This document shows positions 1,291-38,205 of a DNA stretch of 40,395 nt, in pieces. The notes beneath the pieces were generated by a model. The model saw nothing but the letters and a program-made list of their open reading frames with translations. It was not told the origin of the DNA and made no database searches. The DNA comes from Bifidobacterium breve (GTDB lineage Bacteria > Actinomycetota > Thermoleophilia > Miltoncostaeales > Miltoncostaeaceae). The position numbers and the translations under genes were made by a program. Position 1 is the stretch's first letter, and each line of letters opens with the position of its first letter. The stretch spans positions 1 through 40,395 of the forward strand of contig CAMAVU010000008.1 in assembly GCA_945861935.1 (NCBI GenBank). Reading direction: 5' to 3'.

Positions 1291-1304
1291 CGCGCGCCAC
1301 GATA
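1291..1304 (-). promoter_or_regulatory. Candidate -10 element for leaderless transcription of the GT2 gene
   Basis: On the minus strand TATCGT (1304-1299) is followed by 8 nt and then the ATG at 1290. No Shine-Dalgarno sequence is visible between them. A start site 7-8 nt after a -10 box would fall on the A of ATG. No clear -35 is seen. Confidence 0.45.
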
Positions 1305-1313
1305 CGTGACGGG

Positions 1314-2828
1314 TCAGGGGGTCCAGCGCCAGATGGTGGCGCGTCCGATCCGGGCAACCGGCTGGAGTGCGTGCCACGGCACGCCCGCCCGTATCGCGCT
1401 CCGGGCAGTGCCCCAGTTCCGGGGCCAGCCCGCCGTGCGCCGCACGGGCCCGGTCACCACATATCCGCCCCGGTACCGAGCCGGATCGGGCAGGGGCAGC
1501 AGCAGGCGCGCCTCGGCCCTCCCTGCCTCATCGAGGAATCCCGGGTCCACCTCGCGGCGCACCGGCAGCCTGCCCAGCGGACGGAAAGCATTCATCTTGG
1601 CCCACCACGTGTAATCCTCGGTGAGCACGGGCCCGGGCGGCAGGTCGCGCAGCGCGGACGTGACCACCGCCACGAGCGCAACATTGGTCGCCCGGTACCC
1701 CGACTGAACATGTGGGCGGGCGGCCACGATGCCGATCACTGCGATCAGGGGGACGAGCAGCGGGCTCGCCCGGCCATCCAGGGCGAAGGCGATCAGCAAT
1801 GCGGCCGGCACAGACAGGAGGGTGAGGAAGCGCAGCGGCTTGTCCACGCTGATCAGGGTGCCCGCTTCGAGATAGAGGAACCCCCACGCCAGCCACGCCA
1901 CAGGAAGCCCGGCGGACGTGATGCGCCGCGTCACGGCCACGGCGATGGCGATGAGGACGAGCGGCAGCGCGAGGAAGAGCGGCGCCGATGGATCCGCGAC
2001 ACCCGTGACCATCTGGGCGAGATAGCCGGTGGTCGCGTGCCAGCCCTCCAGCGGGGATCGGAACGAGCCCGCACCGGCGGCGGAGGTGAGCGGCCAGAGC
2101 GGACGCCCATCCGTGGCGAACACGGCAACCTCCGCGAGGGGTATGGCGGCAATGCCCCCGATCAGCACCCACGTGCGTCGCCATGCCACACGAAGAGCGG
2201 GCCATGCCGCCAGACCCACGACCGGGAGCATCACGAGCGCGGTCTCGCGTACCGACCACGCCGCGCCCAGCAGGACACCGGCGGCCATCAACCACATCAC
2301 CGGGCGGTTGCCACGCCGGGATCGCAGTGCTGCCCACACGGCCAGCGCGATGAACCCCGGCAGTACCGCGTCCGGCCGGAGGCGTGTGGCCCACAGCACC
2401 TCGAGGGGGGCGAATGCCACCAGCCCGGCGGCGACGAGCGCGGGCCTCCTGCCCCCGATCTCACGGCCGATCAGGAACACCGCGAGGATGGAGAGCAGCG
2501 AGCAGGCGAGTGGCCACGCGACGGCGCGGTAATCGTCGGCACCCGCGATCCGGAAGATCACGGCCACGGGCCAGAGGAATACGGCACGGGATCCGAACCA
2601 TTCGGCCTCGCCGTCGGGGAGCATCCCCCCGGCGAGGTTCTGCGCCACCGCGACGTATCGCGCGTCGTCATCTCCGAGACCGAATTCGAGCCCCCCGAAC
2701 GCCCAGATGCGCACGGCTCCCCCGAGCACGAGCAGGGCAGCGACCGCGAGCCCCGTGAGCACCTGTGTGTTCCGGAGGTACCGGGCGGCCATCGTCGCCA
2801 CGCGCCGGCCGGAGTTCCCGGCGGTCAT
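1314..2828 (-). CDS. GT-C fold membrane glycosyltransferase (GT39/ArnT-like)
   Basis: A 504-residue polytopic membrane protein. After a short basic N-terminus and first helix (about residues 20-40) comes the first extracytoplasmic loop with GDDDARYVAVAQNL, the acidic DD/DA-x-Y motif typical of GT39/PMT-like enzymes that use polyprenyl-phosphate sugars. Multiple hydrophobic helices follow to about residue 390, with a soluble C-terminal tail of about 100 residues. The likely role is transfer of a lipid-carried sugar onto a glycan or protein outside the membrane. The ATG at 2828 overlaps the stop of the MviN-like gene (ATGA), which supports this start over a later internal ATG. The specific donor and acceptor cannot be read from sequence. 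Confidence 0.8.
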   Translation of the reverse strand: MTAGNSGRRVATMAARYLRNTQVLTGLAVAALLVLGGAVRIWAFGGLEFGLGDDDARYVAVAQNLAGGMLPDGEAEWFGSRAVFLWPVAVIFRIAGADDYRAVAWPLACSLLSILAVFLIGREIGGRRPALVAAGLVAFAPLEVLWATRLRPDAVLPGFIALAVWAALRSRRGNRPVMWLMAAGVLLGAAWSVRETALVMLPVVGLAAWPALRVAWRRTWVLIGGIAAIPLAEVAVFATDGRPLWPLTSAAGAGSFRSPLEGWHATTGYLAQMVTGVADPSAPLFLALPLVLIAIAVAVTRRITSAGLPVAWLAWGFLYLEAGTLISVDKPLRFLTLLSVPAALLIAFALDGRASPLLVPLIAVIGIVAARPHVQSGYRATNVALVAVVTSALRDLPPGPVLTEDYTWWAKMNAFRPLGRLPVRREVDPGFLDEAGRAEARLLLPLPDPARYRGGYVVTGPVRRTAGWPRNWGTARSAIRAGVPWHALQPVARIGRATIWRWTP

Positions 2829-4375
2829 CGTCTCCGGGCGAAGGAGAGGTTCCGCAGTGAGGTTCGTGCATCCGCGAATTCGCGCGGGGCGATGACGCGC
2901 GCGAGGCTCACGAAGCCCACGCCCCCCACGCCGAAGACCACGGCCAGCCACGCCGCGGCGCCCCAGAAGGTGCCCGTGCCATCGGGCATGAGGAACGCCG
3001 GCACCAGTGCGATGGCCCCGGCGACGGCACCTGCAACGAGGATGCGGCCCTGCTGCACGCCGAGGGCGCGGATGGACAGTTGCGGGGCGCGGCGGCGCAG
3101 GAACCACAGGGTGATGCCCGTGTTCGCATACACGGCGATGGCGCTGGCAAGGGCGAGGCCGGCTTGCTCGAGGGGACCGAGAAGGATCAGGTCGAGGGCG
3201 ATGGTCAGTGCCACGGTGATGACGGTGGCGATCATGATCTCGCGGGCATGGTTGTCGGCCGACAGCGTGCGGTTCAGCAGGTATCCGAGGAAGTTGCCCC
3301 ACACCGCGACGCCGTAGAAGGCGAGGGGCGCCCCGATCTCCGCGACGCAGGCGGTGTCGCACTGACCCCGCCCGAAGGCCACCTGTGCGATCTGGGTGGC
3401 GCCGATGAACATGAGGATCGACAACGGGATCGCCACGAGGGCGAGAATGCCGGCGGCGCGACGGAAGGCATTCACGCCGTCGTCCCTGCGGCCCTCCGCA
3501 AAGAACCGCGCGATCAGTGGGAATAATGGGATGAGCAGGGGGAACAGCAGTGCCGTCCGTGGTGCCGACCCGAGGGCATTGGCGAACGACAGTGCCGCGT
3601 TGCGCCCGGCCTCGAGTGAGGATGCGAACAGTTTGTCTGTGAACGAGTTGACCTGCTGCAAGATGGATGCGGCGGCCACCGGGATGGCGAGGACGGCCAC
3701 CGATCCCAGCCGTGGATGCGAGAGGGCCAGGCGCATGCCGCCACCGGCCCGTGATTCGCGCCTGAACTGCGGGATCTGGAGCAGTACCTGCAGCACCGCG
3801 CCCAGTGCGACGCCCCAGGCGGCTGCGGTGATCCCGATGCTGCCGGCCCCGACGATGACGCCGAGAAGGATTCCCGCATTGAAGGCCACGCCCACCGCTG
3901 CCGGGCCGGCGAAGCGACCGTGCACCTGCAGGATGGCGGTGAACAGAGCCGAGAAGCCCTGCAGCATGAGCGCTGGCGCCATGACCCGCAGGAGGTCCGA
4001 GGCGATGGCGGCGCGCTCGGGCCCCATCTGGAACAACCAGATGAACGCCTCGGGCACGATGGCCACGAGCCCGGTGAGCACGATCAGGGCGATCCCGATC
4101 CATGCCGCGATGACCCATAAGAGGCCCCAGGCGCTGTGCGCTCCGGATTGCTCGCGCTCCTGCTGGAAGACCGGGATCATCAGAGTGGTCAGCACGTACA
4201 GGAGAACGGCCGCGACGGTGTTGACCACGAACAGGGCGTTCACGAGGGCGTCGGTGGCGGCAGTTGCGCCGTAGACGCCGGCGAGCACCATTTCGCGCAC
4301 GAGGCCGAGAATCCGCGAGAGGATTCCGAAGAGCGCAACGACAGCCGCCGCGCGCGCGACCTGCCGGATGCTCAT
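2825..4375 (-). CDS. MviN/MurJ-family lipid-linked glycan flippase
   Basis: A 516-residue MOP-superfamily membrane protein with about 14 hydrophobic segments. The first helix region SRILGLVREMVLAGVYGA followed by ATDAL matches MviN/MurJ, including the conserved Arg and Asp of the central cavity. The NxxRRLFAEGA-type signature that follows in housekeeping MurJ is absent: here the region reads NTVAAVLLYVLTTLMIP. No Wzx-type flippase is seen elsewhere in the cluster, so this protein probably translocates the lipid-linked exopolysaccharide unit and is not the lipid II flippase itself. It is coupled at both ends by ATGA overlaps, to the beta-propeller gene upstream and the GT-C gene downstream. 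The family call is firm; the substrate is inferred. Confidence 0.85.
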   Translation of the reverse strand: MSIRQVARAAAVVALFGILSRILGLVREMVLAGVYGATAATDALVNALFVVNTVAAVLLYVLTTLMIPVFQQEREQSGAHSAWGLLWVIAAWIGIALIVLTGLVAIVPEAFIWLFQMGPERAAIASDLLRVMAPALMLQGFSALFTAILQVHGRFAGPAAVGVAFNAGILLGVIVGAGSIGITAAAWGVALGAVLQVLLQIPQFRRESRAGGGMRLALSHPRLGSVAVLAIPVAAASILQQVNSFTDKLFASSLEAGRNAALSFANALGSAPRTALLFPLLIPLFPLIARFFAEGRRDDGVNAFRRAAGILALVAIPLSILMFIGATQIAQVAFGRGQCDTACVAEIGAPLAFYGVAVWGNFLGYLLNRTLSADNHAREIMIATVITVALTIALDLILLGPLEQAGLALASAIAVYANTGITLWFLRRRAPQLSIRALGVQQGRILVAGAVAGAIALVPAFLMPDGTGTFWGAAAWLAVVFGVGGVGFVSLARVIAPREFADARTSLRNLSFARRR

Positions 4376-5613
4376 GGTGCGGGCTTCATCCCGTACAGGG
4401 TCCGTACCCCGGTGAGTACGAGGAGGCCCTCCACGCCGACGGCCGGGGTGTAGCGGCCATCACCGAACGTGAAGACCGGTTGCCCGGTGTGTGTATTCAC
4501 CGCGTAGGTCCGTCCCTCGCTCGGCTCGCGCGCGATGGTGGAGAACCACACCAGGTCGCCGATGACCGTCGGGGATCCCGCGATGCGCTCGCCCGCGTCG
4601 AACGTCCACTGCACGTCACCGGTGATCGCGCTCAGGGCGTAGAGATTCCCGTCGTAGGAACCCACGAAGACGGTCTCGTCGCTGATTGCCGGGCTCGAGT
4701 ACGCCCATCCACCGACCACGCGCACCCAGGCGGCGGACCCGTCCTGCGCGTTCAGGGCCAGGATCCGCCCGTTGACGTTGCTGGCGTAGACCCGGCCATA
4801 GGCCACGGCCGGGTTCGCGTAGAAGGCCCCGGCACTGGCAAGCAGGCGGCCGGGGCTGGTGGCGCGCCAGCGTATCCGTCCGCTGTGCATCCCGAACGAG
4901 GTGATGCGCCCGCCGTAGTCGCCCACGAGCACCTGATCGCGGTACAGGGCAAGGCTGGACTTCACCTCACCCGTGGCGCGAGCGGTCCACAACAGGCGTC
5001 CGGTGCGCACGTCCATGCAGAGGATGAGGCCTCCGAGGGTACCGACGTACGCCCGGTTCCCGACGACGAGAGGTGATGACTCCGTCGAGGCCCCGACGTC
5101 GCGGCGCCACACGACGTGCGAGGTGTCCTGCCGCAGCGCCTCGACGTACCCGTTGATCGTCGTGAACAGGACCAGATCCCCGGCGATGGCGGGGGAGGCC
5201 GCGGACCGCCCGGTGAGCCGCCGTGTCCAGGCGGTCCGTCCGGTCCGGGCATCCAGGGCGAACGCCTTCCGCCGGTTGGTGCCGATGAAGACGCGACCGT
5301 CGTTGATGACCGGCGGGAACTCCAGGAGCGAGCCGAGATCGCGCGTCCACACGCGCTGGTAGGGCGGCGGGAGACTGAGGCCGGGATTGGCCCGCGTGCG
5401 CCCGGCGTCATAGCCGTATTGGGGCCAGGCAGTGGTGCCCGGATGGCCACCTGGCCCGGCGGCGACCTGGAAGCCCTCGGCGGTGCCGATCTGGTCGCCT
5501 TCGTCGAGTCGGCCGGTGATGAGGAGGATGCCGATGAGGACGAGGGCGACCGTGCCGAGGACCCCCGAGATCGTCCATGCGCCGACCCTCTCGGAGCGCG
5601 GGAGCAGCCTCAC
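4372..5613 (-). CDS. Membrane-anchored PQQ-type beta-propeller protein
   Basis: A 413-residue protein with one N-terminal helix (about residues 12-34) and then repeated blades of the form SSPAIxDxxVFVGSxDGxLYAL, each followed by TG...W. These are PQQ-like/BamB-type propeller repeats, about seven or eight in number. No PQQ-dehydrogenase active-site signature is evident, so it is more likely a structural or carbohydrate-binding scaffold outside the membrane than an enzyme. The frame is open further upstream, but the GTG at 5613 lies 13 bp after the Wzz-like stop with a GGCGG ribosome-binding stretch, and the upstream extension is Ser/Pro/Arg-rich out-of-frame shadow of the Wzz gene. The 3' end overlaps the flippase start. 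Confidence 0.82.
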   Translation of the reverse strand: MRLLPRSERVGAWTISGVLGTVALVLIGILLITGRLDEGDQIGTAEGFQVAAGPGGHPGTTAWPQYGYDAGRTRANPGLSLPPPYQRVWTRDLGSLLEFPPVINDGRVFIGTNRRKAFALDARTGRTAWTRRLTGRSAASPAIAGDLVLFTTINGYVEALRQDTSHVVWRRDVGASTESSPLVVGNRAYVGTLGGLILCMDVRTGRLLWTARATGEVKSSLALYRDQVLVGDYGGRITSFGMHSGRIRWRATSPGRLLASAGAFYANPAVAYGRVYASNVNGRILALNAQDGSAAWVRVVGGWAYSSPAISDETVFVGSYDGNLYALSAITGDVQWTFDAGERIAGSPTVIGDLVWFSTIAREPSEGRTYAVNTHTGQPVFTFGDGRYTPAVGVEGLLVLTGVRTLYGMKPAP

Positions 5614-7436: not shown

Positions 7437-8139
7437 GTGTTCCCCCGGGCAGGTCGAAGCCCCCCTGCTCGCCGCGGTACTGGCCCTCGCCGCGCAGCAC
7501 CACGCGGACCGTGTCGGCCAGGATGCGCAGGTCGAGGGCGAGGGACCAGGTGTCCACGTACTGCACGTCCAGCGCGATGCGCTCGGACCACGGGATGGCC
7601 GCCCGCCCGCGCACCTGAGCCAATCCGGTGATTCCCGGCCGCGCGATCAGGCGTCGCCGCTGTTCCCCGTCGTAATGGGCCACCTGCGACGGCACCGTCG
7701 GCCGGGGTCCGACGATGCTCATGTCACCCCGGATCACGTTGATGAGTTGCGGCACCTCATCGAGTGACAGTCGGCGCAGCACCCGGCCGGCGCGCGTGAT
7801 GCGGTCGTCATCCTCTGTCACCGCGAGACCGGCGCCCTTGCCCTCGGCACCATCCACCATCGAACGGAACTTGAGGCAGGTGAAGGGGCGCCCGAAGGCC
7901 CCGGCGCGCTTCTGCCGGAACAGGGCGGGCCCCGGCGAGTCCACGCGCACCCATGCCGCAAGCCCGACCATCACGGGCGCCAGCACAATGGCTGCCGGGA
8001 CCGCGATGGCAAGATCGAAAGCGCGCTTGACGGCGCCGCCGACCGGACGGCTGTCCGGGATCGCGCGGCCCTGAGTATCGGGCACGGTGTGCTGCACGTC
8101 TGCATCACGGTAGCGCAGAGGCCCCCCGGCGCGTGTCAT
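7429..8139 (-). CDS. Initiating undecaprenyl-phosphate sugar phosphotransferase (PglC/WcaJ catalytic type)
   Basis: A 236-residue monotopic phosphoglycosyltransferase. After a 36-residue variable N-terminus come KRAFDL and one re-entrant hydrophobic helix (about 42-65), then SPGPALFRQKR, FTCLKFRSM, the catalytic Asp127-Glu128 dyad in SLDEVPQL, and SIVGPRP. Known members load sugar-1-phosphate from a UDP-sugar onto undecaprenyl phosphate on the cytoplasmic face, starting repeat-unit assembly. The short form without the four extra N-terminal helices of WcaJ/WbaP is seen. The ATG overlaps the upstream GT4 stop (ATGA). This is the only initiating enzyme visible in the cluster. The initiating sugar is unknown. 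Confidence 0.92.
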   Translation of the reverse strand: MTRAGGPLRYRDADVQHTVPDTQGRAIPDSRPVGGAVKRAFDLAIAVPAAIVLAPVMVGLAAWVRVDSPGPALFRQKRAGAFGRPFTCLKFRSMVDGAEGKGAGLAVTEDDDRITRAGRVLRRLSLDEVPQLINVIRGDMSIVGPRPTVPSQVAHYDGEQRRRLIARPGITGLAQVRGRAAIPWSERIALDVQYVDTWSLALDLRILADTVRVVLRGEGQYRGEQGGFDLPGGTRG

Positions 8140-14066: not shown

Positions 14067-15520
14067 CGACCCACCTCGTTCCCCGTCGTGCGCCGTGCGA
14101 GCACGATGGTGGTGAGGCAGAGCCCGAAGGTGATCCACATGGGGGCGAAGTGGATCGCGCTGGACGGCCCCAGGCTGCCCAGCAGGAACCCGAGCAGGGC
14201 GAGCGCGCCCGACAGGCCCATGTACCGCAGCCACGGGTCGTGGGTGCGCCGCGCCACGCGGAGGTTGCCCACGAGCGCGTAGAGGTACAGCGCGCCAAAG
14301 AGCGCCAGGCCGATGATCCCGGTGTCCACCAGCACCTCGAGGGCCCAGTTGTGCAGGTTGGCGACGCCCGCGTAACCCTCCTGCTCGCGCACCACGACCT
14401 CCGCGTTGCCCGCTCCTACACCGATGCCCCCGCTGCGTGCGGCGATGCTGATGCCCGTCCCGAGAAGTGACGAGCGGACGGCCCCCGAGCCCGATCCGCT
14501 TTCCACCTGGTCCTGAAGGACGCCGAAGTCGAGTTTCACCACCGCCTGCTCAGGAAGCGGCACGATGCCCGCCCCGAACATGGACGGGACGATCAGCATG
14601 ATCGACAGGCCGACCACCGCGACGGCCGCCATGAAGGCGCGTCGCATCGCGGGATCGGTGGCGAGCACGACCAGGATCCCCAGCAGGATGATGCCGGTGG
14701 CGAGCAGGTTCGCCTTGGATCCCGAGAACAGGATGAGGACGATGGCCGTCGCGGCCCCGGCAAGCCCGAGCGCGCGCAGCCGGATGTCGCGGGCGATGAT
14801 GGGCAGCACGAGGAGGTACGGCAGCGCGAGCGCGAGGTACGTGGCGAAGTTGTTCTGGTTGCCGAAGAACGACGTGGCCGCAAAGGCCCCCACCTTCTCC
14901 GCCAGCGCGCTGGTGGGAAGCCGGAAGCCGGTGGCGATCTCGGCGAGTGCCACCAGCACGGCGACCACGAATGTCAGCCCGAGGGCCCCGAGGAACCATG
15001 CGAGGCGCCGGCGTGTGGACGCCGCCAGAGGAATCGCCAGCATGAGCCCGCTCATCATGAGCAGGAAGATGGTCCAGCGCAGCGCGTCGGCCGTGGAGGT
15101 TGCCCACAGCGTCGAGACCAGAGCCCATCCCGTCCAGCCCGCGGCGATGGCGGCGGGCCATCCGAGGCCGTCCGGAACCGGCACGCCGCGGCCCAGGAGC
15201 AACCAGGTGCCGATGCCGAGGACGATGAGGCCGGCGAGGACCCGGAATGCGAAGGCCTCCCTCGCAGCCGGCACGGCCAGATTCGGACCGACGAGAGCGG
15301 TGACCATGGCCACGAGCACTGCCGCGCGTCCCAGATCGGGAAGTGCGACACGGCCGAGCAGCACGACGCCGAGCAGCACGATCGCCAGCACCGTGCCCGG
15401 GACCGGCGCGAATGCCGCGAGCGCACCGGCGCACAGCGCGGCAAGAAGGGCGAGGGTCGCGGCGCGGGTGCCGGGCCCCCCGGACGCGCCGGACGACCGC
15501 ATCGGAGCGGGTGCCGACAT
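14063..15520 (-). CDS. O-antigen polymerase/ligase family membrane protein (Wzy-type), copy 2
   Basis: A 485-residue protein with about 11-12 membrane helices. The hallmarks of the Wzy/WaaL superfamily are visible: FFGNQNNFATYLALALPYLL before a middle helix, FSGSKANLLATG, and after the large extracytoplasmic loop (about residues 300-390) VGAGN...NLHNWALEVLVDTGIIGLALF with the conserved His. Members join lipid-linked repeat units or transfer the polymer to an acceptor. The train holds a second such protein at 16641-18227, so one may polymerise and the other ligate. A 38-bp gap precedes it, one of the few real gaps in the train, and contains a TACCGT box 9 nt before the ATG. Confidence 0.87.
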   Translation of the reverse strand: MSAPAPMRSSGASGGPGTRAATLALLAALCAGALAAFAPVPGTVLAIVLLGVVLLGRVALPDLGRAAVLVAMVTALVGPNLAVPAAREAFAFRVLAGLIVLGIGTWLLLGRGVPVPDGLGWPAAIAAGWTGWALVSTLWATSTADALRWTIFLLMMSGLMLAIPLAASTRRRLAWFLGALGLTFVVAVLVALAEIATGFRLPTSALAEKVGAFAATSFFGNQNNFATYLALALPYLLVLPIIARDIRLRALGLAGAATAIVLILFSGSKANLLATGIILLGILVVLATDPAMRRAFMAAVAVVGLSIMLIVPSMFGAGIVPLPEQAVVKLDFGVLQDQVESGSGSGAVRSSLLGTGISIAARSGGIGVGAGNAEVVVREQEGYAGVANLHNWALEVLVDTGIIGLALFGALYLYALVGNLRVARRTHDPWLRYMGLSGALALLGFLLGSLGPSSAIHFAPMWITFGLCLTTIVLARRTTGNEVGR

Positions 15521-15535
15521 CGGATCGGCACGGTA
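15521..15535 (-). promoter_or_regulatory. Candidate internal promoter (-10) before the second polymerase gene
   Basis: On the minus strand TACCGT (15535-15530) is followed by 9 nt and the ATG at 15520, inside the 38-bp gap after the GT4 stop. No Shine-Dalgarno sequence is seen. It would let the downstream half of the train be transcribed separately. Confidence 0.4.
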
Positions 15536-22141: not shown

Positions 22142-23286
22142 ACGCCGGGCCCCGGCTGCTCTGCCCGCGCGCGGATCGCGGCAACGGCGTCACGCAGCAG
22201 CGCTTCGCTCGCAGCGGCCCGGGTGGGGTCGGCCAACGGGGTCATGTTGGTCAACTGCACGTGCTCTGCCCCGGCAGCATGAAGGGCAACGACCTGCCCG
22301 GCGACGTCGTCGGGTGTCCCGTGGATGACCGTGCCGAGCAGCACCTCATCGGGCACAGCCGCTGCCAGCCGGATTGCCTCCTCCCGGCCGACCCGCGTCG
22401 GCGCGAAGGACGTGAGGCCGAAGGCCCCGGCCCCGAGCGGATGCGCAGCGCCCACGGCCTCGAATGCCTCCGACGGGCGCGTGAGCGCGATGAAGCGCAT
22501 CAGCAGGGAGTCGAGAACGATGCGTCGTGCCTCGGCGGAGTCATCCGCGACGACCACACGGCAGTACGCGCCCGCGGTCACGGCCTCGTCGGGGCGCCCG
22601 GCGGCGCGTTGGGCCGTGCGTACCTGCGCGAGCATCGCCGCATATCCGGGTGCATCGGTCGCGAGGGGGAACCAGCCGTCGGCCAGCCGCCCTGCAAGGG
22701 CCATGCCGCGCGGCCGGTGCGCGGCCACCCAGATGGGCGGTGGAACATCGCCCAGCGGGCGGAGGCCCATGAACGCGCCCTCCAACCGGAACACATCGCC
22801 GTCGTAGTCCACGGGGCCGGGGTCGGTCATGAGCAGCCGCATGACCTCGAGCCCCTCCTCCAGTCGCCTGAGCGGCAGGGGATTCGACATCCCGTAGGGG
22901 GTCAGGTTCAGGTCCTCACCGGTGCCGACGCCCAGGAGGAACCGGCCGCCGGTGACGTGATCGAGGGTGAGCGCGGTCTGGGCGAGACTGGCCGGGTTGC
23001 GCCGCACGAGGTCCGTGACGCCGATTCCGAGTCGCACCGTCGAGGTCACGGCCGCCGCCGCGGCGATGAGCGGCACCGGGTCCATCCACGTGTGGGGGTT
23101 GGGCGCCGAGGCGGCCTGCGGCACGAGGTCGGGCGTCCATATGCCCAGGGGGAACCAGTGCAGCAGGTGGTCGGCCCACCAGACCGCATCGAAGCCGTCT
23201 GCCTCACGCGCCACCACGGCCGCAATCGCGGCCTCGGCCGGTGGCCGGGCCGAGCCCATGGCGGAGATCTCGAGGGCGCGTCCCAT
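22138..23286 (-). CDS. LLM-class F420-dependent oxidoreductase-like protein
   Basis: A 382-residue luciferase-like TIM barrel. Typical features are GFDAVWWADHLLHWFP, STVRLGIGVTDLVRRNPASLAQTALTLDHVTGGRFLLGVGTGE, and PPIWVAAHRPRGMALAGRLADGWFP. In Actinomycetota this family mostly uses coenzyme F420 (some use FMN) for hydride transfer. It is the first gene of the minus-strand train. The ATG at 23286 begins the conserved core; the frame continues upstream but runs into the divergent gene's opposite strand and is Arg/Pro-rich. Whether it acts on the polymer, on its lipid carrier or on something unrelated cannot be told. Confidence 0.82.
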   Translation of the reverse strand: MGRALEISAMGSARPPAEAAIAAVVAREADGFDAVWWADHLLHWFPLGIWTPDLVPQAASAPNPHTWMDPVPLIAAAAAVTSTVRLGIGVTDLVRRNPASLAQTALTLDHVTGGRFLLGVGTGEDLNLTPYGMSNPLPLRRLEEGLEVMRLLMTDPGPVDYDGDVFRLEGAFMGLRPLGDVPPPIWVAAHRPRGMALAGRLADGWFPLATDAPGYAAMLAQVRTAQRAAGRPDEAVTAGAYCRVVVADDSAEARRIVLDSLLMRFIALTRPSEAFEAVGAAHPLGAGAFGLTSFAPTRVGREEAIRLAAAVPDEVLLGTVIHGTPDDVAGQVVALHAAGAEHVQLTNMTPLADPTRAAASEALLRDAVAAIRARAEQPGPGV

Positions 23287-23302
23287 CGCGGCATCGAGGC
23301 TA
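23287..23302 (-). promoter_or_regulatory. Candidate promoter of the exopolysaccharide train
   Basis: On the minus strand TAGCCT (23302-23297) is followed by 10 nt and the ATG at 23286. It lies in the 122-bp gap between divergent operons. There is no obvious -35 or Shine-Dalgarno sequence. The spacing is at the long end for a leaderless start. Confidence 0.35.
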
Positions 23303-23394: not shown

Positions 23395-23408
23395 GATACT
23401 CCCGCGAC
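23395..23408 (+). promoter_or_regulatory. Candidate -10 for leaderless transcription of the plus-strand operon
   Basis: GATACT (23395-23400) lies 8 nt before the ATG at 23409, with no Shine-Dalgarno sequence between. The GTG at 23391 is in the same frame but would overlap the -10 box, which favours the ATG. The rest of the divergent gap (23303-23394) shows no clear hairpin or operator. Confidence 0.45.
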
Positions 23409-25169
23409 ATGCTGAACGGGCGCCTCTACCGGCTCTCATGGCTCGTGGCGGCGCTGGCGCTGCTGGTGGCCCTGCTGACGCTGGAATCTCCGGGCGGCAC
23501 GCCGCCCCCGCCGCTGCCGCCCGCGTTTGACGCGGTGGCCGCACGCGGTATCTCGGTCGATCTGGCCGCCATCGCCCCCGATCGTGCCCCCGGGACCCCT
23601 GGGGATCTCGCCTCGGCCCAGTGGGTCGCCGGGCAACTGGGGGCTGTGCCCGGTGCCACTGCGGTGCGTCGCCAGCGGTTCTCCGTGATGACGTCCGGCG
23701 CACGGGTGGTGACCGAGAACGTCTATGTCTCGCTCCCGGCGCGGTCCGGGTCCGCCGCCGCCGCCGCTCTGGTGATCTCGGCACCGCGCGATACCCCACC
23801 GGGCGTGAAGGGGGGCGAGAGCGGCACGGCGGTTCTGGTGCAGTTGGCCCGGTCCCTCGGAACCGTGGCGCGTAACCGTTCCGTCCTGCTCGTGTCCACG
23901 GGCGCCTCGACCCTGGGGAATGCAGGCGCACGCTGGCTGGTCAGCCGGTTCTCGGGCACCCCCATCGCGGCTGCACTCTCGCTCGACGACCCCGCCGGTG
24001 TTCCCGGCGGCCTTCAGATCTGGGATGACGGGCAGGACGGCCGGCGTTCGATCGCGATGGCCTCTGCCGCCGAACAGGCCGCCGCCCGGGCCGATGCGCC
24101 GCTGGCGCCGCCGCCGGGTCCGTTCCCGCAACTCGCGGGGATGGCGGTTCCCCAGACGTCTGGTGATCAGGCCGCATACATCGCTGCGGGTATCCCATCC
24201 GTGTCGCTCGCGTCGCGTCCGGAGAGCCCGCTTGCCGGAGGTGATCCGGCGACCGAGGATGCCCTGGGCGATGCCGGACGCACGGCCGAGACGCTCCTGT
24301 CGTCGCTCGACGCGGCCGATGCGCCGGCGTCTCCCGCCGCTGGCGTGGTGATCAACGGCCGCGAGTTGCGCCCCGTGATGAGCCGCGTGGTCATCCTGCT
24401 GCTGGTGCTCCCGATCCTCGTTGCGGGTCTGGACCTCGTGGTGCGCCTGCGGCGTGCCGGCGTGCGCCTGATGCCCTTCATTGCGGCCCTGCTCTGGCGG
24501 CTCCTGCCCGTGGTGGTGGCGATCCTCGTGGCCCACCTGCTCGCCACGGCCGGAATGCTCGCCCCTCCCTCGGGCGGCTGGCCGCCACTCCCGGCGCAGG
24601 TCCCATTCGATCTCGCGGCGGTGGTGGCGGTACTGCTCTCGGTCGGTGCCGCGGTCCTGACGTGGGTGGTCGTCCGGCACCGCGCGATGCGCCGGAATGC
24701 CGAGGTGGCGTCGCGTGCCGCCGCGGGGGTGATCGCCCTCGGCGTCGTGTGCGTGCTCCTCTGGCTGGCCACCCCGTTCGGACTGCTCATCGCCCTTCCG
24801 GCGGCGCACGCGGCCCTGGTCGCCACGCGGGCCCGCAAGCCGTGGCACGTCGTGGCCCTCGCCCTCGTGTCCGCGGTGCCCGCAGTGCTGGTGGTCTGGT
24901 GGGCGTCGTCCCGGATCGACCGGGGAATCCCCTATTCGGCGTGGTACCTCATTGAGACCACGGCATCGGGTGCACGGGGGATCATCGGACCGGTGCTGGC
25001 CACAGCCGTGCTCGTGATCGTCTGGAGCCTCGGCTCGCTCGTGATGTCCAGGGTCCGGCGTGGGCTGGTGGCCGCTGGTCCGTACCGGCCGGTCCCCACC
25101 GATGACGAGCGCATGGCGCGCCGCGGCCGCAAGCGGCGTGGCACCCCGGTGGGCGGGGGAGACGCCTGA
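23409..25169 (+). CDS. M28-peptidase-like pseudoenzyme fused to a polytopic membrane domain
   Basis: A 586-residue protein: an N-terminal helix (10-24), an extracytoplasmic domain (about 40-310) and about eight helices (from about 325 to 560) with a basic tail. The soluble domain follows the M28 layout, but each metal-binding site is changed. ALVISAPRDTPPGVKGG replaces the AHYDS region (no His), GGESGTAVLVQLAR the DNASG region, STGASTLGNAGARWLV the EE-containing region, and SGDQAAYIAAGIPSV the SDHxPF region (His to Gln). It therefore probably binds rather than cleaves. It heads a glycolipid-type operon and ends TGATG with the GT2 gene. The fold assignment is by pattern only and should be taken as moderate. 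Confidence 0.65.
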   Translation: MLNGRLYRLSWLVAALALLVALLTLESPGGTPPPPLPPAFDAVAARGISVDLAAIAPDRAPGTPGDLASAQWVAGQLGAVPGATAVRRQRFSVMTSGARVVTENVYVSLPARSGSAAAAALVISAPRDTPPGVKGGESGTAVLVQLARSLGTVARNRSVLLVSTGASTLGNAGARWLVSRFSGTPIAAALSLDDPAGVPGGLQIWDDGQDGRRSIAMASAAEQAAARADAPLAPPPGPFPQLAGMAVPQTSGDQAAYIAAGIPSVSLASRPESPLAGGDPATEDALGDAGRTAETLLSSLDAADAPASPAAGVVINGRELRPVMSRVVILLLVLPILVAGLDLVVRLRRAGVRLMPFIAALLWRLLPVVVAILVAHLLATAGMLAPPSGGWPPLPAQVPFDLAAVVAVLLSVGAAVLTWVVVRHRAMRRNAEVASRAAAGVIALGVVCVLLWLATPFGLLIALPAAHAALVATRARKPWHVVALALVSAVPAVLVVWWASSRIDRGIPYSAWYLIETTASGARGIIGPVLATAVLVIVWSLGSLVMSRVRRGLVAAGPYRPVPTDDERMARRGRKRRGTPVGGGDA

Positions 25170-32246: not shown

Positions 32247-32755
32247 CGTGACTCACCGGGCACGGGGCGGATGTCCCACTCCACGTGCCCCGTGCGGTAG
32301 TCGAGCAGGCCGATGACCTGCTCCGGCCCGCCCCTGACCCGGCCGGTCACGACCCAGTTGAGTCCATGGTCGGGGCGCGCTTCCCCTCGTGTCCCGGCGG
32401 GCTCCACGCCCCCCGCGGGCACGGGGACGTCCCAGATGGCCGGGATGGTCTTGAGCGCGGCCCCGGATGCCACCGCGGGGGCCCCCGCCCAGACCTGCGA
32501 TGCCTGCTGCATGGCGGCATCGGCGGTGCCAAGGCGCGGGTTGCGGGACGCGGTCACGGCCTCCCAGAGGAAGGCCCAGCCCGAGGCAGGGTTTGCGAGG
32601 TGCCCGGATGCCTGTCCCTCCGCGTAGCCGACGGCCACGAACGAGGGTGCCCAGACCACGGCGACGACGCCCGCGATCATCAGGACCGAAGCGGCGGGAC
32701 CGGGGATGCGACGCGAGCGGCGGATGTCAGCGGTGGGCATGGCGACTGCGGGCAC
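32243..32755 (-). CDS. Single-pass membrane protein upstream of the PBP gene, unknown
   Basis: A 170-residue protein with a basic N-terminus (DIRRSRRIPG), one helix at about 20-43, and an extracytoplasmic part without a recognised domain. It contains GLNWVVTGRVRGGPEQVIGLLDYRTGHVEWDIRPVP near the C-terminus, which may be a small beta-sheet domain. It shares an ATGA overlap with the penicillin-binding protein gene and is probably co-translated with it, so an accessory role in wall synthesis is possible. GTG at 32755 is favoured because TATACT lies 8 nt upstream; an ATG five codons later is the alternative. Confidence 0.65.
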   Translation of the reverse strand: MPAVAMPTADIRRSRRIPGPAASVLMIAGVVAVVWAPSFVAVGYAEGQASGHLANPASGWAFLWEAVTASRNPRLGTADAAMQQASQVWAGAPAVASGAALKTIPAIWDVPVPAGGVEPAGTRGEARPDHGLNWVVTGRVRGGPEQVIGLLDYRTGHVEWDIRPVPGESR

Positions 32756-32769
32756 GGCTACCGAGTATA
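32756..32769 (-). promoter_or_regulatory. Candidate -10 for leaderless transcription of the PBP operon
   Basis: Consensus TATACT (32769-32764 on the minus strand) is followed by 8 nt and GTG at 32755, with no Shine-Dalgarno sequence. A 6-bp-arm inverted repeat (GCGGAC-5-GTCCGC, 32784-32800) sits just upstream, between the divergent promoters. Confidence 0.55.
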
Positions 32770-32809
32770 GGACTGCGTCTCTGGCGGACCCTTCGTCCGC
32801 GTTGCTCCA

Positions 32810-32823
32810 TACCCTTTCGTGCG
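32810..32823 (+). promoter_or_regulatory. Candidate -10 for leaderless transcription of the HAD gene
   Basis: TACCCT (32810-32815) is followed by 8 nt and the ATG at 32824, without a Shine-Dalgarno sequence. It is divergent from the PBP-operon promoter and shares the inverted repeat at 32784-32800. Confidence 0.45.
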
Positions 32824-33504
32824 ATGGCCCACCCCCGACCCAGTCTCGTGCTGTTCGATGCCTTCGGAACGCTCATCGGCGTGGAGCCCCCGGTCCCTGC
32901 GCTCGCAGCCCTCCTCGCGGATGCGGGGTACCCCCACGACGAGGACGTGGTCGCGGCCGCCCTCAGCGAGGAGATCCTCCACTACCGGGCACGCATGCAT
33001 ATCGCGCGGGATCCTGCCGGGCTGTCCGCCCTGCGGGGGGAGTGCGGCGCGGTCCTGGCCAGAGCCCTCGGACCCGGTGCGCCGGATGCCGCCACGACCA
33101 CGACCATGCTGGTGGAATCACTGCGATTCCGGTTGCAGGATGATGCCCTTCCGGCCTTGGAGGCGCTCCAGGCCGCGGGTATCCGCGTGGGCGTGGTGAG
33201 CAACTGGGACTGTGCCCTGCCCGATCACCTGGCCCGACTCGGGGTGGCAGGCCGCTTCGATGTGATCGCGGTGAGTGCCGTGGTGGGCGCAGCCAAGCCC
33301 GATCCCGCGATCTTCCGGCATGCCCTCCATGAGGCGGGGGTGGAGCCTGCTCGGGCCGTCCACGTGGGTGACCGGCGGGTCGAGGACTACGACGGGGCGC
33401 TGGGCGCGGGGCTGCGGGCCCTGCTGCTGGACCGCTCCGGCACATCGCAGGGTCCCGCTGTCATCACCACCCTCGCCGCGGTTCCCGGGAGAGTGGCAGC
33501 GTGA
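32824..33504 (+). CDS. HAD-superfamily hydrolase (subfamily IA)
   Basis: A 226-residue HAD enzyme. Motif I is VLFDAFGTLIG (nucleophile Asp, with the second acidic position replaced by Phe as in haloacid-dehalogenase-like members), motif II VGVVSNWD, motif III Lys in AAKPDPAIF, and motif IV HVGDRRVEDYDGALGAG. The helical cap lies between residues about 18 and 95. It probably acts as a phosphatase or similar hydrolase in the cytoplasm; the substrate is unknown. The ATG is favoured by the TACCCT box. The 3' end shares GTGA with the following small membrane gene. Confidence 0.85.
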   Translation: MAHPRPSLVLFDAFGTLIGVEPPVPALAALLADAGYPHDEDVVAAALSEEILHYRARMHIARDPAGLSALRGECGAVLARALGPGAPDAATTTTMLVESLRFRLQDDALPALEALQAAGIRVGVVSNWDCALPDHLARLGVAGRFDVIAVSAVVGAAKPDPAIFRHALHEAGVEPARAVHVGDRRVEDYDGALGAGLRALLLDRSGTSQGPAVITTLAAVPGRVAA

Positions 33505-34175: not shown

Positions 34176-34460
34176 CTAGCGGGACAGCCGGGTGTGCCGC
34201 AGCAGGGTCGCCAGCCCCTCCTCGAGCCCGGCGGCGCACAACGTGCCATCGGTCTGCTGGCACTGGCGCAGCCGCTCGCCGATGAGGTGCAGCCCCACCT
34301 GATCGACGGCTGCGGTGACGGCGGCCAGTTGCACGAGGACATCGTCGCAGGATGCGCCCTCGTCCAGCATGCGCTGGACGCCGCGCAGTTGCCCCTCGGC
34401 GCGGCGCAGGCGCTTCTGGATCTGATCGCGGGTGGGCGGCCCGGAGGCCGTCGTGGCCAT
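34176..34460 (-). CDS. CsoR/RcnR-family (DUF156) transcriptional repressor lacking the copper-site His
   Basis: A 94-residue all-helical regulator. The DNA-binding face RDQIQKRLRRAEGQLRGVQRML is followed by Cys38 in SCDDVLVQLAAVTAA and Cys67 in RLRQC, 29 residues apart as in copper CsoR (Cys36/Cys65 in the M. tuberculosis protein). The copper ligand His61 aligns with Arg63, while a His lies five residues earlier (His58). Two Cys without the His is the pattern of persulfide-sensing CstR-type proteins. It is the last gene of the trxB-trxA-zinc-ribbon operon, 4 nt after the previous stop. The ATG at 34460 is preferred to the longer open frame, which is Pro/Ala-rich shadow. Confidence 0.85.
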   Translation of the reverse strand: MATTASGPPTRDQIQKRLRRAEGQLRGVQRMLDEGASCDDVLVQLAAVTAAVDQVGLHLIGERLRQCQQTDGTLCAAGLEEGLATLLRHTRLSR

Positions 34461-34464: not shown

Positions 34465-34713
34465 CTAGTGCCCCCCGCAGCCACAGCCGCCGTGGTGGTG
34501 GCCGGAGACGGGGGGGGAGGCACTCGCGACGGCTCCCGCGGCGTGGCCACGTGAGGTCTGGCTGCTCGACCGGCAGGTGACGAAGCCGGTGATCATCTGC
34601 TCGGCAGGGGCGCCGCACGACGGGCACACCCGGTCCTCATCGCGCAGGAACCCCTGGCGGAACACCTCAAACGCGTTGGTGCATCCCGTGCACCGCAGGT
34701 CGTAGGTCGGCAT
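34465..34713 (-). CDS. FmdB-type zinc-ribbon protein with a His/Gly/Cys-rich tail
   Basis: An 82-residue protein. MPTYDLRCTGCTNAFEVF and CPSCGAPAEQMI form the two CxxC knuckles of the FmdB/CxxC_CxxC_SSSS zinc ribbon. The family usually ends in a Ser/Gly-rich tail; here it ends GHHHGGCGCGGH, a strong potential metal- or thiol-reactive site. It lies between trxA (4-nt gap) and the CsoR-family gene (4-nt gap), so a role in redox or metal/sulfur handling is plausible. Function of the family is uncertain. Confidence 0.82.
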   Translation of the reverse strand: MPTYDLRCTGCTNAFEVFRQGFLRDEDRVCPSCGAPAEQMITGFVTCRSSSQTSRGHAAGAVASASPPVSGHHHGGCGCGGH

Positions 34714-34717
34714 GCGC

Positions 34718-35035
34718 TCAGGCGAGCCCGAGGGCCTGTTCGATGCCGGCCCGCGGCATGGCGCCGACCGCGTGCTTCACCAGTTGCCCGCCCTCGAACA
34801 GCCCGATGAACGGGATGCCCTGGATGCCGTAGGCCTGTGCGATGTCGGGGGCCTCGTCAACGTTCACCTTCGCCACGACGATGTCATCGCGGTCGTTCGC
34901 GATCTCCTCGATGACGGGGCCGATCATGCGGCATGGGCCGCACCACGGTGCCCAGAAGTCCACGAGCACCGGCTGCTCGCTTTCGAGCACGAGGCCCTGG
35001 AAGGTGTCGCTGGTGATCTCGATGACGTCGCCCAT
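34718..35035 (-). CDS. trxA: Thioredoxin
   Basis: A 105-residue thioredoxin with the active site WCGPC (Cys32/Cys35) in LVDFWAPWCGPCRMIGP, the buried-Asp region VAKVNVDEAPDIAQAYGI and the cis-Pro in GIQGIPFIGLFEGGQLV. It reduces cytoplasmic disulfides and is recycled by the reductase encoded 12 nt upstream. A GGGGAG ribosome-binding site lies 5 nt before the ATG. Confidence 0.96.
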   Translation of the reverse strand: MGDVIEITSDTFQGLVLESEQPVLVDFWAPWCGPCRMIGPVIEEIANDRDDIVVAKVNVDEAPDIAQAYGIQGIPFIGLFEGGQLVKHAVGAMPRAGIEQALGLA

Positions 35036-35047
35036 CAGGTCTCCCCG

Positions 35048-36016
35048 TCAGTCGGCGGACGCGCCTGCGCCCGCGTGGTCGGCGGCCGGGGCCGGGTTGG
35101 CCTCAAGCCATCTCTCGGCATCAATCGCCGCCATGCAGCCGGTGCCCGCGGCGGTCACGGCCTGCCGGTAGGTGGTGTCCTGCACGTCGCCGCACGCGAA
35201 CACCCCGTCAATGCTGGTGACGGTGCTCCCCGGCTGGGTGAGCACGTAGCCCTCGGAGTCCATGTCGAGGATGTCCGTGAACAGCGATGTGCTGGGCTGG
35301 TGCCCGATTGCCACGAACATCGCCGCGGCGGGGATCACGTCCTCCGTGCCGGTGTCTGCGTCCTTCACGCGCACCCCGGTGACCACCTGGTCCCCCTCGA
35401 CGTCCTCGACGACCGAGCCCCACCGAACGGTGATCCTGGGATGGTCGAGGGCACGCGCGGCCATGATTGCGGATGCCCGGAACTCGTGGCGCCGATGCAC
35501 GATGGTGACGCTCTCGCACATGCGCGTGAGGAACAGGGCCTCTTCCATCGCGGTGTCGCCGCCACCCACCACGACCACCGGCTTGTCCTTGAAGAAGAAG
35601 CCGTCACAGGTGGCGCAGGCGCTGACGCCCCTCCCCATCAGGCGCTGCTCGCCCTCGATCCCGAGCCACTTCGCCGACGCGCCCGTGGACACGATGATGG
35701 CGTTGCCTTCGTGCTCGGCGTCTCCGACCCACACGCGGAACGGGCGCCGGGACAGGTCAATGCGGGTCACATCGGCGGTGATGAAGCGGGTGCCGAAGCG
35801 CTCGGCCTGGGCGCGGAACAGCTGCATCATCTCCGGGCCCTCGATTCCGTCCGGGAAGCCCGGGTAGTTCTCGACGTCCGTGGTGATCATCAACTGGCCG
35901 CCGGCGCCGTAGCCCTCGATCACGAGCGGCTCCAGTCCCGCGCGCGCGGCATAGATGGCGGCCGTCAGACCCGCCGGTCCGCTGCCGATGATGATCACCT
36001 CGTTGACGTCCGCCAC
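35048..36016 (-). CDS. trxB: Thioredoxin reductase
   Basis: A 322-residue FAD/NADPH flavoprotein. FAD-binding VIIIGSGPAGLTAAIYAARAG at the N-terminus, the redox pair CATC (about residues 134-137) in GVSACATCDGFFF, NADPH-binding VVVGGGDTAMEEALFL, and the C-terminal FAD motif GVFACGDVQDTTYRQAVTAAGTG. It transfers electrons from NADPH to thioredoxin. The GTG at 36016 has the ribosome-binding site GGAGGGGGG about 5 nt upstream and is preferred to the TTG one codon earlier. The start region overlaps a palindrome resembling CsoR-family operators. Confidence 0.95.
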   Translation of the reverse strand: MADVNEVIIIGSGPAGLTAAIYAARAGLEPLVIEGYGAGGQLMITTDVENYPGFPDGIEGPEMMQLFRAQAERFGTRFITADVTRIDLSRRPFRVWVGDAEHEGNAIIVSTGASAKWLGIEGEQRLMGRGVSACATCDGFFFKDKPVVVVGGGDTAMEEALFLTRMCESVTIVHRRHEFRASAIMAARALDHPRITVRWGSVVEDVEGDQVVTGVRVKDADTGTEDVIPAAAMFVAIGHQPSTSLFTDILDMDSEGYVLTQPGSTVTSIDGVFACGDVQDTTYRQAVTAAGTGCMAAIDAERWLEANPAPAADHAGAGASAD

Positions 36017-36018
36017 CA

Positions 36019-36035
36019 ATACCCCCCTCCGGTAT
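36019..36035 (-). promoter_or_regulatory. Putative CsoR-family operator overlapping the trxB ribosome-binding site
   Basis: The coding strand reads ATACCGGAGGGGGGTAT, perfect 5-bp arms ATACC/GGTAT with a 7-bp spacer. From memory this is the arm and spacing form of CsoR-family operators (for example that of B. subtilis copZA). The outer pair TACCC (36020-36024) and GGGTA (36038-36042) gives a second, overlapping palindrome. A TACGCT box (36049-36044) would place the start site at about 36035, inside the operator. The operon's last gene encodes a CsoR-family repressor, so autoregulation is likely. Confidence 0.6.
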
Positions 36036-36049
36036 ATGGGTACAGCGTA

Positions 36050-36646
36050 TCAGGAACGCGGGATGGTGAAGACGAGCCTGTTGCCCGCGCCCCACGGACG
36101 CCGTCCGGCAGCCCAGTACACACGATCCTCGTCCTGCTGGGCGCGCTGGATACGGCGGCCGTCCTCCAGAGTCACGAGGCCCCATGCGAGCAGTACGCCG
36201 ATGACCACGCCCTCTGCCGTGCCGCCGCGCCCGAGCACGGCGACCAGGAAGATCAGCGTGGCGAAGGCCGAGACGAACAGCAGGACGCCGCTGAGGGCCG
36301 CGAACCGGCGCCAGTCGGCCGGAGCGGCGGCGAGCACGCGCGGTCCCTCCGCCGGCTGGGCATCGGGCAGCCGGATGGACGGGAGGCCGCCCTTGCGCAG
36401 CCATGAGCGGAGCAGGGGGAAGAAAATGAGTCCCGTGATGCCCGTGATGGCGCTGAGCACGCCGAGCCACGTCCACGACCAGCCGTCCTCCGAGGTTGCC
36501 TCGAGGATGCCCGAGACGACACCGAGCAGCAGCGCCACCACGATGATCTCGATCGCGTAGAGGCGCGCGAGGCGCGCGTAGTCCCACAGCAGGTCGCGTG
36601 CGCCGATGCGGATGGACACGGGCTTCTGACGTCGCTCTCTCGCCAC
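36050..36646 (-). CDS. Four-helix membrane protein, unknown
   Basis: A 198-residue protein with helices at about 27-48, 58-80, 112-134 and 138-155, a basic N-terminus (ARERRQKPVS) and a hydrophilic C-terminus (RRIQRAQQDEDRVYWAAGRRPWG). No family motif is recognised. It lies 33 nt upstream of trxB on the same strand and divergent from the MFS gene. GTG at 36646 is chosen because TAGCCT lies 8 nt upstream. Confidence 0.65.
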   Translation of the reverse strand: MARERRQKPVSIRIGARDLLWDYARLARLYAIEIIVVALLLGVVSGILEATSEDGWSWTWLGVLSAITGITGLIFFPLLRSWLRKGGLPSIRLPDAQPAEGPRVLAAAPADWRRFAALSGVLLFVSAFATLIFLVAVLGRGGTAEGVVIGVLLAWGLVTLEDGRRIQRAQQDEDRVYWAAGRRPWGAGNRLVFTIPRS

Positions 36647-36660
36647 GGCGGCGAAGGCTA
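36647..36660 (-). promoter_or_regulatory. Candidate -10 for leaderless transcription of the membrane-protein gene
   Basis: TAGCCT (36660-36655 on the minus strand) is followed by 8 nt and GTG at 36646; no Shine-Dalgarno sequence. It is back-to-back with the promoter-like box of the divergent MFS gene about 22 bp away. Confidence 0.45.
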
Positions 36661-36681
36661 GTCCGCGTTCGGCTCCGGGGG

Positions 36682-36696
36682 TATACGGTGGAGCGC
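36682..36696 (+). promoter_or_regulatory. Candidate -10 for the MFS/rlmN operon
   Basis: TATACG (36682-36687; or TACGGT at 36684-36689) lies 9 (or 7) nt before the GTG at 36697. The box sits within the palindrome GTATAC. No Shine-Dalgarno sequence at usable spacing precedes this GTG. Confidence 0.45.
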
Positions 36697-38205
36697 GTGC
36701 AGGAACCCATGCTTCCCGCGCGCCTGCGTGCGGTCCGCGCCCGCCTGAGGGCGAGCCCGCGCTGGCGGTGGATGGCCATGACCGTGGTGGCCGGGGGCAT
36801 GATGCTGTCGGTGCTGAACATCAGCATCGTCAACATCGCCCTGCCCGATATCTCGAGCGACTTCGACGTGGGCGTGTCCGCGGCGGGATGGGTGGTGACG
36901 GGGTTCCTCGTCACCCAGGCGGTGCTGCTCCCCATCGCGGGGCGGGCAGGCGACCTGTACGGCCGCCGCCGGATATTCGTGCTCGGCGTGCTCGTGATGG
37001 TCGTGGCGTCGGCCCTGTGCGCGCTGGCGTGGAACGAACCCTCGCTCGTGGTGTTCCGCATCCTTCAGGGCGTGGGTGCCTCAGCGATGGCCCCCACCGC
37101 GTATGCGTACGCCGCCATCCTCTTCCCGCCCGGCGAGCGCGGCCGGGCGATCGGCATCCTGACGGCCATCATCACGGTGGCGCCGGTGGTGTCGCTCAAT
37201 CTCGCCGGCCTGCTGGTGGGGGTATGGGGATGGCGGAGCGTCTTCTGGTTCACGCCCGTCGTCGGTGGTCTGGTCCTGGTGGGCGCCGCGCTGGTGATGC
37301 ATCGCCGTCCGCCGGGTCCGAAGCGACCGTTCGATCTGGCAGGCGCGGCGCTGGCTGCACTCGGTCTGTTCCCGATCCTCACTGCGCTGGCAGGCGCGGC
37401 GAGTTGGGGCTGGGCATCGCCGCGCGTCCTGCTCCTGCTTGCCCTGGGCGGGGTCGGCCTCGCCCTGTTCGTGTGGCGCGAGTCGCACGCGGCCGACCCC
37501 ATGATCGACCTCGGCCTGCTGCGCTTGAGGACGGTCCGCAACCCCAACCTGACCGGGTTCTGCGTGGGGGCTGCGATGTTCGGGACCCTGCTGCTGCTGC
37601 CCTTCTACTTCACTTCGGTGCTGGGGTACAGCGACGTGCTGCTGTCGCTCGCCATCACCCCCATCGCGCTCTGCTTCATGGTCGGATCGCCGATGTCGGG
37701 GCGCTTGCTCAACCGTGCCGGGAGCGACCGGATGCTGCGGATCGCGCTGGTCACGGCAATCATCGGGGCGGTGGTGCTGGCATGGGGCTTCACGTCTGAG
37801 GCGTACCCCCTGGTACTCCCCGGCATGGTCGTGCTCGCCCTCGGTCTGGCCATGTCCACAGCGCCGGTGACCACCACCGTCATCCACGAGGTGCCCGAGG
37901 ACCGGCTCGGGGTGGCGTCGTCCCTGCCCAACGTGTCGCGCTACGCGGGCGGGGCGCTTGGCGGGGCGCTGCTCAGCACCGTGGTGGCGATGTCCATCCC
38001 TGCCACCGTCACCGCCCAGGATGGCCTGGTGTCGGCGTCGCTGCGTGCCGAGGTGGCGGGCGGAATGCGTACGGCCCTCCTGGTGGCCGCCGGGATCCTC
38101 GTTCTCGGGGCGATCGCGGCGTTCCGTGTGCCACGGGTGCTCGGGCCGGGGGCGACGATCGCAGCACGCGTGACCGGGACTGCGGCGACGCGTGGCGGCC
38201 GGTGA
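36697..38205 (+). CDS. MFS transporter, DHA2-like (14 TM) drug/proton antiporter type
   Basis: A 502-residue protein with about 14 helices. After helix 1 (MAMTVVAGGMMLSVLNISIVNIALPDIS) comes the DHA2 motif AAGWVVTGFLVTQAVLLPIAGRAGDLYGRRRIFVLG (motif A, between helices 2 and 3), then FRILQGVGASAMAPTAYAYAA (motif B-like Arg) and GRAIGILTAIITVAPVVSLNLAGLL (motif C-like). It likely exports small hydrophobic or drug-like compounds with proton exchange. The frame is open back to 36598; GTG 36697 is chosen from the -10-like box, with ATG 36709 as alternative. It ends GTGA with the next transporter. Confidence 0.87.
   Translation: MQEPMLPARLRAVRARLRASPRWRWMAMTVVAGGMMLSVLNISIVNIALPDISSDFDVGVSAAGWVVTGFLVTQAVLLPIAGRAGDLYGRRRIFVLGVLVMVVASALCALAWNEPSLVVFRILQGVGASAMAPTAYAYAAILFPPGERGRAIGILTAIITVAPVVSLNLAGLLVGVWGWRSVFWFTPVVGGLVLVGAALVMHRRPPGPKRPFDLAGAALAALGLFPILTALAGAASWGWASPRVLLLLALGGVGLALFVWRESHAADPMIDLGLLRLRTVRNPNLTGFCVGAAMFGTLLLLPFYFTSVLGYSDVLLSLAITPIALCFMVGSPMSGRLLNRAGSDRMLRIALVTAIIGAVVLAWGFTSEAYPLVLPGMVVLALGLAMSTAPVTTTVIHEVPEDRLGVASSLPNVSRYAGGALGGALLSTVVAMSIPATVTAQDGLVSASLRAEVAGGMRTALLVAAGILVLGAIAAFRVPRVLGPGATIAARVTGTAATRGGR

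Follow-up and report, generated by a model that had tools for sequence, protein, structure and literature searches.

The window analysed here is a stretch of 40,395 nucleotides that makes up contig C8 (CAMAVU010000008.1) of a 1.60 Mb genome assembly (GCA_945861935.1; 78 contigs, completeness 95.7%). It harbors eight genes whose ATG or GTG start codon is preceded, at a distance of 7–10 nt, by a hexamer resembling the promoter −10 box TANNNT. Across the sampled half of the genome, such boxes are enriched at a narrow spacing before genes that head a transcription unit, are specific to ATG and GTG, are accompanied by a scarcity of Shine-Dalgarno (SD) words and, at the sites of the window, are conserved in sister species. 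Leaderless transcription of the boxed genes, as proposed in a first-pass annotation of the window, is strongly supported by the box, by its spacing and by analogy with mapped actinobacterial promoters.

Reading of the sequence confirmed all eight boxes and start codons at the positions given in that annotation (Table 1). Six of its hexamers fit TANNNT as quoted, but the one before 23409 is GATACT, and TATACG (36682–36687), quoted for 36697, is not TANNNT; it lies two bases off the register of the overlapping TACGGT, which is. Some non-overlapped genes of the window are without a box, e.g., those with coding-score starts at 34460 and 36016. A box seen at 8097 is probably due to chance because an overlapping start at 8139 is open; the conservation check gave no usable locus for it. 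Another box lies 10 nt before the overlapping start of a downstream (follower) gene at 39398.

Table 1. Candidate promoter boxes and the start codons that they precede in the window; the gap is the number of nucleotides between box and start codon.
Hexamer	Position	Strand	Type	Gap (nt)	Start codon	Remark
TATCGT	1299..1304	-	−10 box	8	ATG at 1290	
TACCGT	15530..15535	-	−10 box	9	ATG at 15520	
TAGCCT	23297..23302	-	−10 box	10	ATG at 23286	
GATACT	23395..23400	+	−10-like	8	ATG at 23409	TGC just before (extended −10 style)
TATACT	32764..32769	-	−10 box	8	GTG at 32755	
TACCCT	32810..32815	+	−10 box	8	ATG at 32824	
TAGCCT	36655..36660	-	−10 box	8	GTG at 36646	
TACGGT	36684..36689	+	−10 box	7	GTG at 36697	

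Conservation of the eight sites in the genus

Orthologous loci of the eight genes were compared within the genus; the counts include the genome under study, and the members of the genus are related, so the loci are not independent. Weaker or partial matches (L152–L157, L178–L187, L248–L258, L320–L331, and L333) were omitted, as were two of the 22 loci for 15520, in which the N-terminus is missing; the gene at 23286 was searched for separately, and in 11 of the 20 genomes no close counterpart turned up. All eight sites were found to be kept in the genus at gaps of 6–10 nt, and much of the flank drifts. TANNNT was present at a gap of 8–10 nt in 20/20 usable loci of 15520 and at 7–8 nt in 20/20 loci of 36646, TACNNT at 6–9 nt in 20/20 loci of 36697, and TAGCCT at 10 or 7 nt in all nine loci of 23286. 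The box of 32755 was found in 17/17 loci, at a gap of 8 nt throughout, and that of 1290 precedes an in-frame start in 18 of 19. At 23409, TGCGATACT occurs in 19/19 loci at gaps of 6–9 nt, and TANNNT at gaps of 5–11 nt in none of the 19. A control window at 20–26 nt contained TANNNT in 10/17 loci of 32755, 2/19 of 1290, and 1/20 of 36697 and was otherwise empty or nearly so; hence, 32755 on its own is a weaker conservation test.

When the loci of five of the eight genes were anchored on the box, identity to this genome was 0.87–1.00 in the box and 0.34–0.52 in the spacer, and mostly 0.3–0.7 upstream, rising to 0.64–1.00 in the six bases before the box. As the anchoring pattern partly fixes the letters of the box, conservation is judged more fairly by the locus counts. 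Box and start codon were found to change place together: in six of the 1290 orthologs, the start, a GTG, is located 15 nt farther upstream by the protein alignment and is itself preceded by TATCGT at a gap of 6 nt.

At 32824, TACCCT followed by ATG or GTG was found in 17/17 loci, with an in-frame start in 11. In the other six (L144–L147, L150, and L151), a GTG located 7 nt after TACCCT opens an out-of-frame open reading frame (ORF) of 20 codons. In five loci, this ORF closes with GTGA, which overlaps a GTG in frame with the gene, and in the sixth its stop lies 2 nt before an ATG. Such an arrangement is expected under a leaderless rule, by which the codon at the mRNA 5′ end would be used and the gene would be reached by coupling.

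Enrichment of the box across half of the genome

The genome-wide motif search suggested in the first-pass annotation was carried out on 799 kb of the same genome, window included, i.e., about half of it. Genes were called with a codon-score script written for the purpose, giving 762 genes, of which 351 were classed as heads (190 divergent and 161 same-strand, the latter with over 60 nt of upstream sequence), 322 as followers within 25 nt of the upstream gene, 76 as lying between these limits, and 13 as having no upstream neighbor. So that starts would not be chosen by the box, all in-frame ATG and GTG codons between 150 nt before and 90 nt after the coding-score start were counted as candidates.

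In heads, TANNNT at gaps of 6–9 nt was observed 121 times against 15.7 expected from off-peak positions (7.7-fold; Poisson p ∼1e-63), and in most boxes the first T is located 12–14 nt upstream of the start codon, as predicted. The 1358 candidates gave 39, 32, 37, 13, 6, and 5 boxes at gaps of 6, 7, 8, 9, 10, and 11 nt, respectively; the gaps from 0 to 29 nt outside 6–9 held 0–8 boxes each. Counted strictly, 119 of the 351 heads (34%) are boxed, compared with 15.6 expected by chance, and their start codons, predicted to be 5′-terminal, comprise 62 GTG and 57 ATG. The annotation's chance estimate of 0.3% per position is about right, local A and T being 0.14 each, but the freedom of gap and start codon raises it to ∼4% per head.

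The signal was absent from every control codon. With CTG taken as the start of heads, 4 genes were boxed against 6.1 expected, and TTG showed one box at gaps of 6–9 nt among 122 candidates, neither with a peak. Internal in-frame ATG/GTG codons carried a box at gaps of 5–11 nt in 27 of 11,924 cases (0.23%, against 0.25% off-peak) and out-of-frame ATG/GTG codons in heads in 23 of 1567 (1.47%, against 1.67% off-peak). Leaderless mini-ORFs of the kind seen near 32824 showed no general excess in the sampled part (6 boxes at gaps of 6–9 nt among 506 out-of-frame candidates). With no peak among these candidates or among the 1567 out-of-frame triplets, mini-ORFs are ruled out as a general account of the unboxed heads.

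A mixture model that took TANNNT as its starting point, with 349 heads as the fitting set, returned a box with T (0.81), A (0.92), three free positions, and T (0.98), in which gaps of 6–8 nt dominate. The mixing fraction was 0.43 for heads, 0.53 for divergent heads, 0.30 for same-strand heads, 0.20 for genes at gaps of 26–60 nt, and 0.11 for followers; on pseudo-starts it was 0.00 (CTG) and 0.04 (ACG/GAC). In some same-strand heads, the true start probably overlaps the upstream gene, as at the open starts 11707 and 32246 in the window, and the divergent figure is therefore the cleaner one. The statement that nearly every non-overlapped gene is boxed was thus overstated, with 34% by strict count, 43% by the model, and 53% among divergent heads.

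The middle positions of the fixed T-A-NNN-T word are mostly G or C, and the trinucleotide before it is CGN in 27 and TGN in 10 of the 121 boxes. A −35 partner was searched for as a TTGACA-like word with at most two mismatches at spacers of 15–19 nt. It was found in 11 of 121 cases, compared with 7–16 of 121 in six other windows, and a −35 element of the classical sigma-70 type was accordingly rejected.

Boxed starts were said to lack an SD sequence, and SD 5-mers occurred in 0/119 boxed heads (control window, 4/119) and 4-mers in 5/119 (control, 11), a deficit to which the test itself contributes, since half of the tested window is taken up by the box. Unboxed heads, scored over any candidate start, contained 5-mers in 66 of 232 (control, 28) and 4-mers in 110 (control, 69). 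Of the 559 same-strand neighbors, 137 overlap by exactly 4 nt and 31 by exactly 1 nt; these 168 followers carried 5-mers in 37 cases (control, 9) and 4-mers in 72 (control, 28), and followers at gaps of 0–25 nt carried them in 15/123 (control, 4) and 33 (control, 13), respectively. The enrichment at unboxed heads and followers is not an effect of construction. The 16S match of this genome ends at model position 741, short of the anti-SD; no 16S match was obtained in 18 of the 20 genus genomes, and the usual anti-SD tail, GGATCACCTCCTTTCT, was present in 4/4 family or class relatives examined.

Lineage, relatives, and known systems

Sigma-70 region 3 matches at an E value of 0.001 were found at two places only in this genome (contig C2, 74480–75562, and contig C7, 31357–32442), and 21 relatives outside the genus contain 2 to 13 each, all but one of them at least 4. 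By sequence comparison, one of the two sigma factors is 91–95% identical to proteins in 11 records, known by their titles only; nine of these are titled Miltoncostaeales, Thermoleophilia, actinobacterium, Actinobacteria, or plain bacterium, and two otherwise. On these titles, the organism was taken as a member of Actinomycetota, class Thermoleophilia. The two other records (L058 and L059), titled Bifidobacterium breve and Acidobacteria, hold a sigma factor 94–95% identical to that of this genome, and these bins look mislabelled.

To follow the box across relatives, samples of 72–80 kb were taken from ten genomes of the genus, family, and class, and samples of 50 kb from Deinococcus radiodurans MP1, Sinorhizobium meliloti pSymB, and Escherichia coli. 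All except E. coli were called with the codon table of the present genome, and the calls for G024, G026, and G038 depend on the table; with it, the boxed heads of G038 shifted from 3/53 to 9/44. Boxed heads numbered 12/35 (G018), 12/43 (G020), 8/41 (G022), 10/49 (G024), 8/46 (G025), 10/34 (G026), 7/51 (G027), 14/39 (G031), and 9/44 (G038), with 1.1–3.0 expected in each; 9/10 relatives thus exceed the off-peak expectation at least 2.6-fold. D. radiodurans MP1 showed 7/24 against 1.6 expected, and no excess was seen in S. meliloti pSymB (2/22; 1.7 expected) or E. coli (2/26; 4.0 expected). In the sample of G038 (contig C1, 1000001–1080000), the gap between box and start seems longer than in the other relatives, at 7–12 nt, although the numbers are small.

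Leaderless genes have been reported in 86 of 89 Actinobacteria, at a mean of 19.2% of genes (range, 2.3–29.8), and that survey describes a TA-like signal in Actinobacteria and Deinococcus-Thermus, in the form of TANNNT in high-GC groups (Zheng et al., 2011, PMC3160421). The present genome resembles that set in having TANNNT in high-GC DNA, placed there ∼10 bp upstream of the start codon; its percentages refer to head genes rather than to genes and, having a different denominator, are not directly comparable. Its lineage is not named in the main text of the survey, where Thermoleophil-, Conexibacter, and Rubrobacter have 0 occurrences. In Mycobacterium tuberculosis, TANNNT is described upstream of 73% of the primary transcription start sites (TSSs) with no −35 motif identified, and, among genes for which a primary TSS was mapped, 26% are leaderless (Cortes et al., 2013, PMC3898074). 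The boxes described here are similar in the TANNNT −10, in the absence of a −35 motif, and in CGN being commoner than TGN before the box, whereas the TSSs in that work were mapped and the starts here are predicted. The leaderless RTG rule and the RTGA-coupled small ORFs described in mycobacteria (Shell et al., 2015, PMC4633059) likewise find their counterparts in the restriction to ATG/GTG and in a leaderless small ORF ending with RTGA at the start of the next gene; unlike in mycobacteria, as that report describes them, a single such ORF was noticed here, in six sister species.

In the literature searched, no description of leaderless initiation in Thermoleophilia or Miltoncostaea was found; a paper retrieved for leaderless genes and Thermoleophilia mentions that class in its main text only once, in a table of anti-SD types. 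The mechanism is a known actinobacterial one and not new; it is the lineage for which the searched literature held no description.

Proposed leaderless transcription and its alternatives

It is proposed that the box serves as the −10 element in promoters of the actinobacterial kind, which have TANNNT but lack a −35 consensus, and that it is read by a housekeeping sigma factor, the assignment to this sigma factor being itself an inference. RNA polymerase would start 6–9 nt past the box, on the first base of the ATG or GTG or no more than a few bases from it; the mRNA would be leaderless, and the ribosome would start on the 5′-terminal AUG or GUG. About two fifths of the heads, and about half of the divergent heads, would use this route. 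Some of the other heads show SD words and presumably have longer leaders, and downstream genes would rely on stop-start overlap and SD. As a whole, this explanation is considered very probable, and the motif peak at the predicted spacing supports it. It is in line with the argument that only the operon-proximal gene can be leaderless and that distal genes usually need an SD, as made by Zheng et al. (2011, PMC3160421).

Several observations weigh against leaderless transcription as the account of these starts. The split between leaderless heads and coupled followers, implied in the first-pass annotation, holds insofar as followers show overlaps and SD words, but it is not clean, as the box also precedes 32 of 322 followers against 6.0 expected. 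The coding-score start differed from the boxed codon in 48 of the 119 boxed heads, one 1290 ortholog (L231) has no box, and G039, a class relative of 56% GC, showed no excess (3/35 boxed heads; 3.0 expected). To these may be added the SD deficit at boxed heads, so far as it is built in, and the gaps of 9 and 10 nt at 15520 and 23286, which could leave leaders of 1–3 nt.

The last point bears on the possibility that the boxes are −10 elements whose transcripts carry very short leaders of 1–5 nt rather than beginning exactly at the start codon. Gaps of 8–10 nt are present in the window, and in the sampled genome the counts at 9–11 nt make up a minor tail. The modal gap of 6–8 nt is the distance at which the +1 position usually follows a −10 hexamer, and the specificity for ATG/GTG with the exclusion of TTG suggests that the codon stands at the 5′ end. 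Short leaders as the general explanation are therefore regarded as rather unlikely.

That the box is no promoter at all, but acts in translation or is an AT-rich stretch without structure, would agree with its closeness to start codons and with its presence before some followers. It is very hard to reconcile with a fixed word that has a mostly G/C middle and is the same as the mapped −10 of M. tuberculosis, with the six genomes in which the box precedes a short out-of-frame ORF, and with a modeled share of boxed genes that is roughly fivefold higher at divergent heads than at followers. This reading is accordingly held to be highly improbable. Chance combined with a reader's choice of favorable start codons could draw on the two hexamers that misfit as quoted and on the share of heads boxed by chance, but it is refuted by the 7.7-fold enrichment over 351 heads, the flat CTG, TTG, internal, and out-of-frame controls, and the conservation in the genus.

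If leaderless transcription holds, a start-signal rule known from model actinobacteria extends to a small-genome lineage and to the majority of the sampled members of the class, and a box 6–9 nt before an ATG or GTG can serve in practice as a guide when start codons of these genomes are corrected. The sites of the window add joint movement of box and start codon and one case of a box before a gene-coupled mini-ORF. A stronger version can be put forward tentatively and is, on balance, doubtful. According to it, leaderless initiation would be the default for heads of transcription units in the genus (more than half of them), the position of the −10 box would set the start codon, and boxes that have drifted out of register with their gene would still deliver ribosomes through a new leaderless mini-ORF ending at or beside the gene start, as the 32824 gene suggests in the six sister species.

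It was also observed that two divergent gene pairs of the window have opposite-strand boxes only about 24 bp (36655–36689) and 41 bp (32764–32815) apart. Two polymerases could hardly bind together at such distances, and hence the genes of each pair may be mutually exclusive in expression. The close box pairs are kept in sister species, in 20/20 loci for the former and 17/17 for the latter.

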